Shown one piece after another: positions 1 through 20,964 of a DNA stretch of 64,000 nucleotides. The notes under the pieces were generated by a model that was not told the DNA's origin, did no database searches, and worked only from the letters and a program-made list of their open reading frames with translations. The DNA lies in NCBI GenBank assembly GCA_003666485.1, contig CP032931.1, forward strand, positions 1,736,001 to 1,800,000, given 5' to 3'. How positions within the stretch are numbered: the stretch's first letter is position 1; each line of letters opens with the position of its first letter. Source of the DNA: Levilactobacillus brevis (GTDB lineage: Bacteria > Bacillota > Bacilli > Lactobacillales > Lactobacillaceae). The translations under genes and the position numbers were made by a program.

Positions 1-3000
1 TCAGACTCGGACAGTGATTCGGACTCAGATAGTGATTCGGACTCGGACAGCGACTCGGACTCAGATAGTGATTCGGATTCCGATAGTGACTCTGATTCAG
101 ATAGCGACTCCGACTCAGACAGTGATTCCGATTCAGATAGCGATTCCGATTCAGATAGCGACTCGGACTCAGATAGTGATTCTGATTCCGATAGTGACTC
201 TGATTCAGATAGCGACTCCGACTCAGACAGTGATTCGGACACTGATAGCGATTCTGACTCAGACAGCGACTCCGATTCCGACAGTGACTCAGATTCCGAT
301 AGTGACTCAGACTCGGACAGCGACTCGGATTCCGATAGTGACTCAGACTCCGATAGTGATTCTGATTCCGACAGCGACTCGGACTCAGATAGTGATTCGG
401 ACTCAGATAGTGACTCCGATTCCGACAACGATTCAGACTCAGACAGTGACTCCGATTCCGACAGCGATTCAGACTCAGATAGTGATTCCGATTCAGATAG
501 CGACTCCGACTCAGATAGTGATTCGGACACCGATAGCGATTCAGACTCAGACAGCGACTCGGATTCCGATAGTGACTCCGACTCAGATAGCGATTCCGAT
601 TCCGACAGTGATTCGGACTCAGATAGTGATTCGGACTCAGATAGTGATTCCGATTCCGACAGTGATAGCGATTCCGATTCCGATAGTGATTCAGATTCCG
701 ATAGTGACTCAGACTCGGATAGCGATTCAGACACGGATAGTGATTCCGATTCCGACAGTGACTCAGATTCTGACAGCGATTCCGATTCCGATAGTGACTC
801 AGATTCTGACAGCGACTCAGATTCCGACAGTGATTCCGATTCTGATAGTGATTCGGACTCCGACAGTGATTCGGACTCCGACAGTGACTCAGATTCAGAT
901 AGCGATTCCGACACCGACAGTGACTCGGACTCAGACAGTGACTCCGACTCAGATAGCGATTCTGATAGCGACTCCGACTCGGATAGTGACTCAGATTCCG
1001 ACAGTGATTCAGATTCTGATAGCGACTCCGATTCCGACAGTGATTCGGACTCAGATAGTGATTCTGATTCCGATAGTGATTCGGACACCGACAGTGACTC
1101 AGATAGTGATTCTGATTCCGATAGTGATTCGGACACCGACAGTGACTCTGATTCTGATAGCGACTCTGACTCGGACAGCGACTCAGACTCCGACAGTGAT
1201 TCCGATTCCGATAGTGATTCCGACTCGGACAGTGATTCGGACTCAGATAGTGACTCTGATTCGGATAGCGATTCCGATTCGGACAGCGATTCAGATTCCG
1301 ATAGTGATTCAGACTCAGACAGCGACTCAGATTCAGACAGTGATTCGGACTCTGATTCGGATAGCGACTCAGACTCCGACAGCGACTCAGATTCAGACAG
1401 TGACTCAGATTCAGACACCGACAGTGATTCCGACTCAGACAGTGACTCCGATTCGGATAGCGACTCTGATTCTGACAGCGACTCCGACTCGGACAGTGAT
1501 TCCGACTCGGATAGCGACTCCGACTCCGACTCGGACAGTGATTCAGATTCCGACAGTGATTCAGACTCGGACAGTGACTCCGACTCAGATAGTGATTCAG
1601 ACTCCGACAGCGACTCTGATTCTGACAGTGACTCAGACTCGGATAGTGATTCTGATTCCGACAGTGATTCGGACTCGGACAGTGATTCGGACTCAGATAG
1701 CGATTCTGACTCCGACAGCGACTCCGATTCCGACAGCGACTCAGATTCAGATAGTGATTCCGATTCAGATAGCGATTCAGACTCAGACAGTGATTCGGAC
1801 ACCGATAGCGACTCGGACTCAGATAGCGATTCCGATTCTGACAGTGACTCAGATTCTGATAGCGATTCCGATTCTGACAGCGATTCAGACTCAGACAGTG
1901 ATTCGGACACTGATAGCGACTCGGACTCAGACAGCGACTCAGATAGCGATTCCGATTCTGACAGCGATTCAGACTCAGACAGTGATTCGGACACCGATAG
2001 CGACTCGGACTCAGACAGCGACTCAGATAGCGATTCCGATTCTGACAGTGACTCAGATTCTGATAGCGATTCCGATTCCGACAGTGATTCAGACTCAGAC
2101 AGTGATTCGGACACCGATAGCGACTCGGACTCAGACAGCGACTCAGATAGCGATTCCGATTCTGACAGTGACTCAGATTCCGATAGCGATTCCGATTCTG
2201 ATAGTGATTCGGACTCCGACAGCGACTCGGATTCTGACAGCGATTCCGACTCGGACAGTGACTCCGATTCTGACAGTGATTCGGACTCAGATAGCGACTC
2301 AGACTCCGACAGTGATTCAGACTCAGATAGTGATTCGGACTCAGATAGCGACTCAGATTCCGACAGTGATTCGGACTCCGACAGTGACTCAGATTCCGAT
2401 AGCGATTCAGATTCTGATAGCGACTCAGACTCCGACAGTGATTCCGATTCCGATAGTGATTCCGACTCGGACAGTGATTCGGACTCAGATAGTGACTCTG
2501 ATTCGGATAGCGATTCCGATTCGGACAGCGATTCAGATTCCGATAGTGATTCAGACTCAGACAGCGACTCAGATTCAGACAGTGATTCGGACTCTGATTC
2601 GGATAGCGACTCAGACTCAGACAGCGACTCAGATTCAGACAGTGACTCAGATTCAGACACCGACAGTGATTCCGACTCCGACAGTGACTCCGATTCGGAT
2701 AGCGACTCTGATTCTGACAGCGACTCCGACAGTGATTCCGATTCGGATAGCGACTCCGACTCCGACTCAGACAGCGACTCCGATTCTGATAGCGATTCCG
2801 ATAGTGATTCTGATTCGGATAGCGACTCTGATTCTGACAGCGACTCCGACTCGGACAGTGATTCTGATTCCGACAGTGATTCTGACTCGGACAGTGACTC
2901 CGACTCAGATAGTGATTCCGACTCCGACAGTGACTCTGATTCTGACAGCGACGCTGACTCTGACAGCGATTCGGATTCAGACAGTGATTCCGACTCAGAT

Positions 3001-4335
3001 AGTGATTCAGACTCCGACAGCGACTCAGATTCTGACAGCGATTCAGACTCGGACAGTGACTCAGATTCTGACAGCGATTCAGACTCGGACAGTGACTCTG
3101 ATTCGGATAGCGACTCTGACTCTGACAGCGATTCGGATTCAGACAGTGATTCGGATTCGGATAACGACTCAGATTCAGATAGTGACTCCGATTCCGACAG
3201 CGATTCGGACTCGGATAGCGACACCGACTCCGACAGTGACTCTGATTCTGACAGCGACTCGGATAGCGATTCCGATAGTGATTCTGATTCCGATAGCGAC
3301 AGCGATTCAGACAGCGATTCGGACTCCGATAGCGATTCGGACTCGGACAGCGACTCAGATTCGGATAGTGACTCCGACTCCGACAGCGACTCCGATTCTG
3401 ATAGCGATTCCGATAGCGATTCGGATTCGGATAGTGACTCCGATTCAGACAGTGATTCCGATTCAGATAGCGACTCGGATTCCGATAGTGACTCCGACTC
3501 CGACAGTGATTCCGATTCGGACAGCGACTCCGACTCAGATAGCGATTCCGATTCCGATAGTGATTCAGACTCGGACAGCGACTCGGACTCAGATAGTGAT
3601 TCAGACACGGACAGTGACTCAGACTCAGATAGCGATTCAGACACGGACAGTGACTCAGACTCAGATAGCGATTCCGACAGCGACAGTGACTCAGATTCGG
3701 ACAGTGATTCCGATTCAGATAGTGACTCAGACGCCGACAGTGACTCCGATTCAGATAGCGACTCTGATTCCGACAGTGATTCGGATTCAGATAGCGACTC
3801 GGACAGCGATAGCGACTCTGATTCTGACAGTGATTCGGATTCCGATAGCGACTCAGACTCCGACAGTGATTCGGATTCAGATAGTGACTCAGACTCCGAC
3901 AGTGATTCCGACTCCGACAGCGACTCCGATTCTGACAGCGACTCGGATTCCGATAGTGACTCAGACTCGGATAGTGATTCAGATTCGGACAGTGATTCGG
4001 ATTCAGATAGTGACTCAGACGCCGACAGTGACTCCGATTCCGATAGCGACTCTGATTCCGACAGTGATTCGGATTCAGATAGCGACTCAGACGCCGACAG
4101 CGACTCCGATTCTGACAGTGATTCGGATTCCGATAGTGATTCGGATTCAGATAGTGACTCCGATTCCGATAGCGATTCGGACGCCGACAGTGATTCCGAT
4201 TCTGATAGTGATTCAGACTCAGATAGTGACTCCGATTCCGATAGCGATTCGGACACCGACAGTGACACCGATTCCGACAGCGATTCGGACACCGACAGTG
4301 ACACCGATTCCGACAGCGACTCAGACACCGACAGT
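1..4335 (+). repeat. 18-bp tandem repeat encoding the SD stalk
   Basis: The DNA follows the unit GAY-TCN-GAY-TCN-GAY-AGY almost throughout, so two of three Ser codons are TCN and one is AGY. The same 18-bp unit builds the SD region of staphylococcal clfA. Units differ at wobble positions, but larger blocks are copied: 1177-1376 is identical to 2419-2618, an offset of 1,242 bp or exactly 69 units, and a block around 1800-2170 is present several times in succession. Confidence 0.9.
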
Positions 4336-20065: not shown

Positions 20066-20091
20066 GTGAGGCCAGTTTTGGGGGAATGCGT

Positions 20092-20964
20092 ATGAAAGCA
20101 GTCAAGAAGCTGGTGTTCTTCATCATTATCGTTGCCGTGGTCGGTGGCGCAATGTGGGGGATGACCAAGATGTATGCGGCCATGTTCGGTAATAACCACT
20201 ATTACCAACGAACGCGGGCGCAGACGACACAGGATGGCTTGATCAATGCGAAGTTGGTCTCGGCAAAGCACTTAAAAGCCTTGACGGCGTTGACGCACGG
20301 GACACGGTATACCGGCAATACTAGCCTGGACCAAGCGGCGGTGACGTATCGTTATCGCGTGGGCAAGAACAATATCAGTAATTTTGTCGGCAAGTCACAG
20401 ACGTTACACCTGTATACGACATCTAAACTGATGACCAAGCCAATGGTACGAGATGCTGCGACGTTCTGGAATACCTTGGCCGGGCAGACGGTCGTCACCG
20501 TGGTTGATCAGGCCAAGCAAAGTGATGAAGTGATTCATGATAAGCAAGATAAGACGAAGTCGTTGGGCGGGCAAACCTACGACCGACAGGGGATGGTGTT
20601 CTATCCCGCGAACTGGCGATCCATCGGGCTGACCGCAGCTGAGAAACAGGATTGGCACGAAGCTGTTTTGATTCGGGAGATTGGCCATGCGCTGGGCATC
20701 CCCAGTTTAGGCGGTGGCGCGCAGGGTACCAATGCGTGGACGGCTGGTAAATTGGGTTCGGAGGTCATGGGGTATTGGTCGGTCGGCCATGACGCGCCCG
20801 CTGTCAATCAGCAGGGCGTGAAGAGTACCGCGATGGACGGGGCCGCACTGGCACTAGCCGGACTGAGTTGGCAGCGGCCACAACGACTGGCCACGTGGGT
20901 CTATACCACGCAGACACCGGTCGTCACCTACCATAACGGACGGATCTGGTCGACGGTTAAGTAG
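20092..20964 (+). CDS. Membrane-anchored zincin-like protein with incomplete zinc site
   Basis: 290 residues. Start ATG 20092 is spaced well from GGGGG; an ATG six bases upstream is possible. An N-terminal hydrophobic segment (about 5-25) is an uncleaved signal anchor, placing the rest outside the cell. The region IREIGHALGIP followed by VMGYW matches the metzincin/matrixin pattern HExxHxxGxxH plus Met-turn, but the first His is Arg195 and the third position is Ser205; Glu196 and His199 remain. It is probably not an active zinc protease of the usual kind. It is the last gene of the island and may bind the exported SD protein or its glycan. Confidence 0.78.
   Translation: MKAVKKLVFFIIIVAVVGGAMWGMTKMYAAMFGNNHYYQRTRAQTTQDGLINAKLVSAKHLKALTALTHGTRYTGNTSLDQAAVTYRYRVGKNNISNFVGKSQTLHLYTTSKLMTKPMVRDAATFWNTLAGQTVVTVVDQAKQSDEVIHDKQDKTKSLGGQTYDRQGMVFYPANWRSIGLTAAEKQDWHEAVLIREIGHALGIPSLGGGAQGTNAWTAGKLGSEVMGYWSVGHDAPAVNQQGVKSTAMDGAALALAGLSWQRPQRLATWVYTTQTPVVTYHNGRIWSTVK

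Follow-up and report, generated by a model that had tools for sequence, protein, structure and literature searches.

Organisation of the locus

The window is a 64,000-nucleotide stretch of contig CP032931.1 of Levilactobacillus brevis (positions 1,736,001 to 1,800,000), from a genome of 3.1 Mb. It begins inside the gene of a giant surface stalk with Ser-Asp (SD) repeats, which is followed by an island of ten genes on the same strand (Table 1); two neighbouring pairs overlap by 4 bases. This arrangement had been given in a preliminary description of the DNA and is confirmed by the open reading frames (ORFs). The gene coordinates are those of the frames, with the start codon of some picked by us. 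The stalk ORF is uninterrupted in the window and starts 5.4 kb ahead of it (G000:C1:1730619, G000 being the window genome). The complete protein carries a KxYKxGKxW signal at the N-terminus; its first half is rich in Ala and Ser, the other half is SD repeat, and there are 814 SD dipeptides in total. The longest run holds 824 consecutive alternating Asp residues, 796 of them preceded by Ser. Long ORFs on the minus strand across 1-4766 are mirror frames of the repeat. The C-terminus consists of a hydrophobic segment and a basic tail; an LPxTG wall anchor was looked for there and none was found. The ending LWGxIxAAIAAVxGGSWWYFGxKR (with variants), which lacks LPxTG, is common to the Levilactobacillus stalks inspected (window 4860-4953 and relatives), and LPQTNE is found at the end of some Lactiplantibacillus-type stalks.

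A gap of 480 bases with a terminator-like hairpin (-24.9 kcal/mol, z -7.9; none of 200 shuffles equally good) separates the stalk gene from the island. A simple promoter and terminator scan did not call this hairpin, and its promoter-like and terminator-like counts were not above those of shuffles (16 promoter sites against 17.0 expected). Given the strong hairpin and the gap, the stalk gene is probably transcribed apart from the island.

The first island gene encodes a protein of 546 amino acids, hereafter the barrel protein. The preliminary description had named most of the other products. Its SdgA/SdgB-like glycosyltransferase (GT) pair holds: GT1 and GT2 match NF047880 and NF047881 with E values from 8e-51 to 3.9e-81 (173-273 bits), under the curated cut-off of 800, so they are relatives of SdgA and SdgB and not these enzymes themselves. 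The HAD phosphatase, kinase and nucleotidyltransferases are present by profiles, the kinase (APH type) being fused to a nucleotidyltransferase-like domain in which the GxGxR/K signature was not seen by eye. Two proteins had been called WavE-like; a Pfam scan of 12 relatives at E<=1 lists no WavE profile, and the label was dropped. The N-terminal half of one of them (large transferase B) folds like GT-A/nucleotidyltransferases with a moderate Z of 11.3. Both domains of the proposed Mur ligase/CapA fusion are present, with a third, serine-carboxypeptidase-like (S11) domain between them. The protein described as exported and zincin-like has an N-terminal hydrophobic segment; an active zincin is not supported, the first zinc His of its motif being lost. 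The degenerate REIGH is seen in the window and four sister loci; the intact HEIGHALGIPH occurs in G356 and in one of two G182 copies. In G182 (region L073/L074) the tandem pair, one intact and one degenerate, lies directly upstream of the stalk gene.

Table 1. Stalk gene, hairpin and island genes, in window coordinates
Feature	Position	Strand	Basis or remark
3' half of giant SD-repeat stalk gene	1..4956	+	open frame; complete gene 3,445 aa
Terminator-like hairpin behind SD gene	4988..5028	+	fold energy against shuffles
546-aa core protein (g546, the barrel protein): N-domain of ~200 aa and (alpha/alpha)6 barrel	5436..7076	+	closest to N-acylglucosamine/cellobiose 2-epimerases
SdgA/SdgB-like glycosyltransferase 1 (GT1)	7325..8842	+	NF047880 E 2.7e-66, 224 bits, cut-off 800
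SdgA/SdgB-like glycosyltransferase 2 (GT2)	8857..10389	+	NF047880 E 3.9e-81, NF047881 E 2.1e-78, 264-273 bits, cut-off 800
HAD phosphatase, EcbF/BcbF-like	10418..10813	+	TIGR01689 E 1.8e-41, 141 bits, cut-off 162
Nucleotidyltransferase-like domain fused to APH-type kinase	10810..12453	+	PF00483 E 1.6e-6; PF01636 in 7/8 relatives
Sugar-phosphate nucleotidyltransferase, N-terminal motif intact by eye	12456..13172	+	PF12804 E 9.2e-7; TIGR03992 E 7.1e-14
Large transferase A (formerly 'WavE-like')	13169..14965	+	48% identity to large transferase B
Large transferase B: N-half GT-A/nucleotidyltransferase-like, C-half apparently helical	14986..16833	+	
Triple fusion: MurF-like ligase / serine-carboxypeptidase-like domain without SxxK / CapA (PGA_cap)	16859..20065	+	domain profiles and motifs
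Zincin-like protein, N-terminal hydrophobic segment, degenerate motif REIGHALGIPS	20086..20964	+	motif alignment

The barrel gene accompanies alternating-Asp stalks

Matches to the barrel protein were counted at E<=1e-20. The gene was found in 35 of the 397 sampled genomes of the family (4 of 40 genera) and in 53 of the 395 sampled genomes of the order, 44 of the 53 lying outside the family. The surroundings in every matched genome were examined, giving 84 entries: the 35 family genomes yielded 38 and the 44 outside genomes 46. Relatives are named by genome handle (G###) and their taxon labels are inferred, Lactiplantibacillus (g38) and Enterococcus-like (f3) from the names of database entries. 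The g47 loci we take to be Listeria-like on gene order.

A stalk was scored where the nearest upstream ORF on the same strand (at least 100 aa, within 1.5 kb) has at least eight Asp at every second position. Such an (X-D)n run is present at 73 of the 84 entries. As a control, only four of 1133 other ORFs of at least 100 aa pass (G159, G308, G595, and G599); all four are at barrel loci and resemble pieces of stalks. In three of the 11 entries that do not pass (G308, G595, and G599), the alternating-Asp ORF sits one place further upstream. G342 is cut by a contig end, an upstream ORF that could be scored is missing in G292a and G550, the barrel gene of G084 is in fragments, G583 has a fragment, and G592 has a run of 5. 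G395 and G540b have no alternating-Asp run in the upstream ORF. G292a and G292b, counted as two of the 84, are halves of one gene at contig ends. A contig or stretch end truncates the upstream ORF on its 5' side in 27 rows, which were judged on the visible run (26 positive, G342 negative).

The main X is Ser or Thr in 32 of the 33 positive entries of the family, and Ala or Gly in 38 of the 40 outside it. Lactobacillaceae mostly have Ser or Thr as X, Listeria-like and most Enterococcus-like genomes Ala. No other module is as constantly tied to alternating-Asp stalks as the barrel protein, whatever X is. In G084 (L109/L110), where no stalk gene lies upstream of the fragmented barrel gene, GT1 and GT2 are still open, which resembles joint loss of the stalk and barrel genes.

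Glycosyltransferases and export

SdgA/SdgB-like transferases lie nearby in 29 of the 34 Ser/Thr loci and in none of the 39 Ala/Gly loci (p 1.5e-15, a value that overstates independence because the GT split closely tracks taxonomy); the search covered the surroundings of the 39 loci and, for G127, the rest of the genome. A locus thus carries these transferases only if its stalk has mostly Ser or Thr as X. The five Ser/Thr loci with none nearby are G356 and G347, which have a close GT2 relative elsewhere in the genome, G292b, which stops at a contig border, G540a, and G576. SdgB adds GlcNAc to the Ser of DSD, and further extension is reported for SdgA (passages of PMC8561734). By analogy, GT1 and GT2 very likely glycosylate the Ser of the SD units in the same way, and would place N-acetylhexosamine (HexNAc) there. 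In L071 (13041-13859), the barrel gene is followed by the gene of a more distant SdgA-like transferase and this in turn by that of a protein of 272-273 aa, with similar cases in G053, G182, G395, and G292a; it is called hexapeptide acyltransferase-like on Pfam matches of the G015 copy only.

The stalk shares with the serine-rich repeat glycoproteins of accessory Sec systems the KxYKxGKxW signal and a Ser-rich, presumably glycosylated stalk, and the N-terminal part of GT1 weakly matches the Asp1 profile (PF16993, E 7.2e-7). In contrast to those systems, no separate Asp1-3, SecA2 or SecY2 gene is found among the ten island genes. The SecA2 model finds a single SecA-family locus in the genome; its score of 912 bits is under the cut-off of 930, and so are the matches obtained in 10 of 14 controls.

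The MurF-like ligase and its fusions

The MurF-like domain of the triple fusion has the P-loop GVTGSVGKST, the catalytic Lys in AEVKTRM and the DDxxN motif as DDTHNAE. It scores 125 bits with TIGR01143 (MurF) against a cut-off of 288.6 and is hence MurF-like and not MurF; by profile it also matches the cyanophycin synthetase 7wac (E 2.5e-6). The middle domain is a pseudo-PBP: the active-site motif SxxK is absent from all compared relatives with the domain, which have GVGR, GLGN and similar at the aligned position. The CapA part matches PF09587 (PGA_cap) with E 3.1e-44, and the residues of metal-site type Asp744, Asn833, His834, Asp837, and His968 are invariant in 25 of 25 sequences. An epimerase analogy for this domain modelled on MslH (passages of PMC10406935) was considered; related PDB entries match over short stretches only. 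Named database entries label MurF/pseudo-PBP/CapA fusions as 'CapA family protein', 'capsule synthesis protein CapA' or hypothetical. Distant relatives of the triple fusion exist outside the family. L049 and L051 (G227 and G071) hold relatives from a second fusion clade behind a mannitol-type PTS/dehydrogenase set (by eye).

A MurF-like ligase lies near 22 of the 84 barrel entries (21 by script, G317 by eye). Six are triple fusions, 13 are free-standing (G710 in pieces only), and in three (G433a, G665, and G662) the ligase is the C-terminal half of the barrel protein itself. The ligase thus joins the barrel protein with or without the GTs. Eleven of the 22 loci have a mainly-Ala stalk and no SdgA/SdgB-like transferase, and we therefore see the ligase as linked with the barrel protein and the Asp repeat, not with an O-glycan. 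There is good support for the view that the barrel protein and the ligase are a module dedicated to (X-D)n stalks. Since these two follow the Asp while the O-glycosylation genes follow Ser and Thr, the Asp carboxylates of the stalk may be modified.

The same genes could instead serve plain SD glycosylation, with the barrel protein and the ligase tailoring a Ser-linked glycan, for instance by attaching amino acids to an acidic sugar, and the Asp only recognised. The SdgA/SdgB-like pair adjoins the stalk, the nucleotide-activating trio and the two GT-A-like proteins suit glycan extension, and SdgB recognises the negatively charged SD backbone (passages of PMC8561734). We regard this explanation as rather unlikely, for the barrel protein, and the ligase in 11 loci, stand beside mainly Ala-Asp stalks with little or no Ser or Thr and no such GT nearby.

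A role on peptidoglycan or another wall polymer, which would seat or anchor the acidic stalk with no covalent change to it, has in its favour that the MurF-like and carboxypeptidase-like domains belong to cell-wall families and that 13 of 58 tabulated stalks end in an LPxT-type sorting signal (our own pattern), one that the inspected Levilactobacillus stalks lack. The linkage is, however, to the exact (X-D)n pattern, and most Listeria-like loci have the barrel gene with no ligase nearby; we consider this role unlikely.

The barrel protein

An (alpha/alpha)6 barrel of the AGE superfamily type (N-acylglucosamine/cellobiose 2-epimerase) was identified in the 546-aa protein. By sequence, 3 of 34 members match the 2-epimerase family PF07221, with a best E of 0.0011. 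Strongly conserved polar residues include invariant His and clusters of Arg and Asp. The spacing of the His suits a triple-His centre, but a weak residue-level alignment to one AGE-family protein did not place them, and no useful match was obtained when PDB sequences were searched with profiles of the barrel alignments. In P0137, P0140, P0141, P0144, P0145, P0147, and P0148, the barrel and a family-2 glycosyltransferase share a single chain of 875-889 aa; the barrel part of P0140 is C-terminal, and two of the seven have the source name Enterococcus. A small protein of 82-96 aa with one apparent membrane segment is encoded directly 3' of the barrel gene in L147, L150, L152, L153, L154, L156, and L157.

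A non-enzymatic role was also weighed: in the cytosol, the barrel protein would chaperone the long, disordered acidic repeat or help to export it, with the other genes as mere passengers. The near one-to-one linkage with the repeat regardless of X fits such a role, and GtfB of the accessory Sec pathway chaperones its acceptor (passages of PMC5796085). The conserved polar residues and the sugar-enzyme fold suggest catalysis instead, and the fusion to the ligase also argues against a chaperone, which we think very unlikely.

Variation of the island in Levilactobacillus

Nine Levilactobacillus stalk loci carry the HAD/kinase/nucleotidyltransferase trio and at least one GT-A-like protein. The whole gene order of the window is found in four (G000, G337, G305, and G317) and variants of it in five more, all of the same genus. 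A free MurF-like ligase replaces the triple fusion in G327, and G373, G356, G347, and G111 have the pseudo-PBP/CapA part without MurF. Searches of the order and of the phylum (E<=1e-20) found the kinase fusion in 3 of 395 and in 1 of 398 genomes, respectively. In one of the three, G688 (L114/L115), the trio lies within a capsule-type cluster (by eye), which suggests a portable precursor cassette. The MurNAc-salvage trio (HAD, anomeric kinase, and MurU), made up of the same kinds of enzyme, was considered; the MurU profile gives 20 bits against 250, and this identity is not claimed.

Relation to known systems

An SD stalk with two transferases is already known. The staphylococcal Sdr proteins with SdgB and SdgA likewise have long SD repeats on a surface protein and two adjacent transferases of this kind (passages of PMC8561734). 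Unlike them, the window locus has eight more genes and a stalk with no LPxTG, and its barrel and ligase also accompany stalks with little or no Ser or Thr. The two related transferases GtfA/GtfB (Gtf1/Gtf2) of Lactiplantibacillus plantarum are needed there for a single HexNAc on surface and other proteins; the pair is described as a general system, with no link to an SD stalk, a barrel protein or a Mur ligase in passages of PMC5796085. Cyanophycin synthetase resembles the present case in pairing a Mur-type amide ligase with a polymer of repeated Asp (PMC9262961), whereas the Asp polymer here is ribosomal and displayed on the surface, and the ligase is MurF-like and known from sequence. The Listeria-like loci encode beside the barrel gene an (Ala-Asp)n protein of the kind of Lmo1799 of Listeria monocytogenes, an LPXTG protein with 226 Ala-Asp repeats (passages of PMC8687577).

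The Listeria-like stalk is probably Lmo1799 itself; stalk and barrel would be lmo1799/lmo1798 on gene order (ffh and rpsP, seen by eye) and repeat type. In the literature searched, mostly titles and abstract openings, no description of the 546-aa family or of a Mur ligase at SD or Ala-Asp (AD) stalks was recognised; the barrel as constant partner, its fusion to a Mur ligase and the occurrence of the barrel at mainly Ala-Asp stalks are unreported there.

Proposed function

We give about an even chance to reading the island as a modular locus for the production and decoration of an alternating-Asp (X-D)n surface stalk. Sec would export the stalk, which would stay attached to the membrane or wall. 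In Levilactobacillus, the HAD phosphatase, kinase and nucleotidyltransferase would make an activated sugar or phospho-monomer, which the two GT-A-like proteins would add to the Ser-linked glycan. The barrel protein would handle a sugar or glycan. Ligases of the MurF type build an amide bond on a carboxylate that has been activated. Either by itself or as MurF/pseudo-PBP/CapA, the MurF-like ligase would spend ATP on amide bonds at a carboxylate, most simply that of the stalk Asp side chains, and the amino compound placed on Asp could perhaps be an amino sugar handled by the barrel protein. Amidation of the Asp side chains is proposed because Asp is the invariant feature of the partner, because of the chemistry of such ligases, and because cyanophycin synthetase attaches Arg to Asp side chains (PMC9262961); we hold it tentatively, at roughly a one-third chance. 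That the barrel protein and the ligase covalently decorate the side-chain carboxylates of hundreds of alternating Asp in ribosomal surface stalks in a cyanophycin-like manner, as a previously unrecognised system independent of and combinable with SdgA/SdgB-type O-glycosylation and across several Lactobacillales families, is possible but doubtful.

Several observations weigh against decoration of the Asp by a barrel-ligase module. Stalk type, GT presence and taxon are confounded by the split of X between the family and the genomes outside it. G127, an Ala/Gly locus, has GT relatives elsewhere in its genome, and the two Ser/Thr entries outside the family (G540a and G576) have no SdgA/SdgB-like GT nearby. 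Twenty-eight of the 39 Ala/Gly loci have no ligase nearby, in a search of the surroundings. The four loci with pseudo-PBP/CapA have no MurF at the locus, our motif pattern for the MurF C-domain is unmatched in G327, G149, G172, and G701, and the ligase of G710 is in pieces. G395 has a barrel gene with no stalk gene upstream. The 397 family genomes gave at least 13 full-length triple fusions (at most two candidates per genome were scored, and copy numbers are lower bounds), of which seven lie outside stalk operons; the copy of G352 has a stalk operon next to it on the opposite strand, while the G193 and G211 copies adjoin other giant surface proteins. In a quick tree with no support values, six of the seven form another clade, the second G099 copy being left out. 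Finally, GH127 (7 of 34 members, best E 1.2e-6) fits the barrel better by sequence than the 2-epimerase family, so that even its general reaction may not be that of a 2-epimerase.

The preliminary description had read the island as decorating the SD stalk, or a polymer on it, beyond simple GlcNAc. That the island belongs with the stalk is borne out by the gene order, whole in four loci of the genus and varied in five more, and decoration beyond GlcNAc is plausible. The assumption that everything acts through a Ser-linked glycan, or a polymer on it, is not supported. It had also asked whether the island genes occur without an SD gene, and the answer differs by gene: the barrel gene is nearly always with an alternating-Asp stalk, often (Ala-Asp)n and not SD, while the triple fusion is also present outside stalk operons and the trio also in a capsule-type cluster (G688).

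Alternating-Asp stalks (SD, Thr-Asp, AD) are found on staphylococci, lactobacilli, and enterococcus-like and Listeria-like bacteria, and the modification described for them is glycosylation at Ser (passages of PMC8561734). The loci compared here indicate that the Asp-alternating backbone itself has a dedicated partner of sugar-enzyme fold, joined by an amide ligase in about a quarter of loci, even where there is little or no Ser. This linkage makes the question 'why (X-D)n' testable, and it gives MurF/pseudo-PBP/CapA fusions a first context.

Further along the window, positions 29834-36357 hold ordinary division and cell-wall genes (MraW, a PBP with PASTA, and MraY-like and MurD-like proteins).

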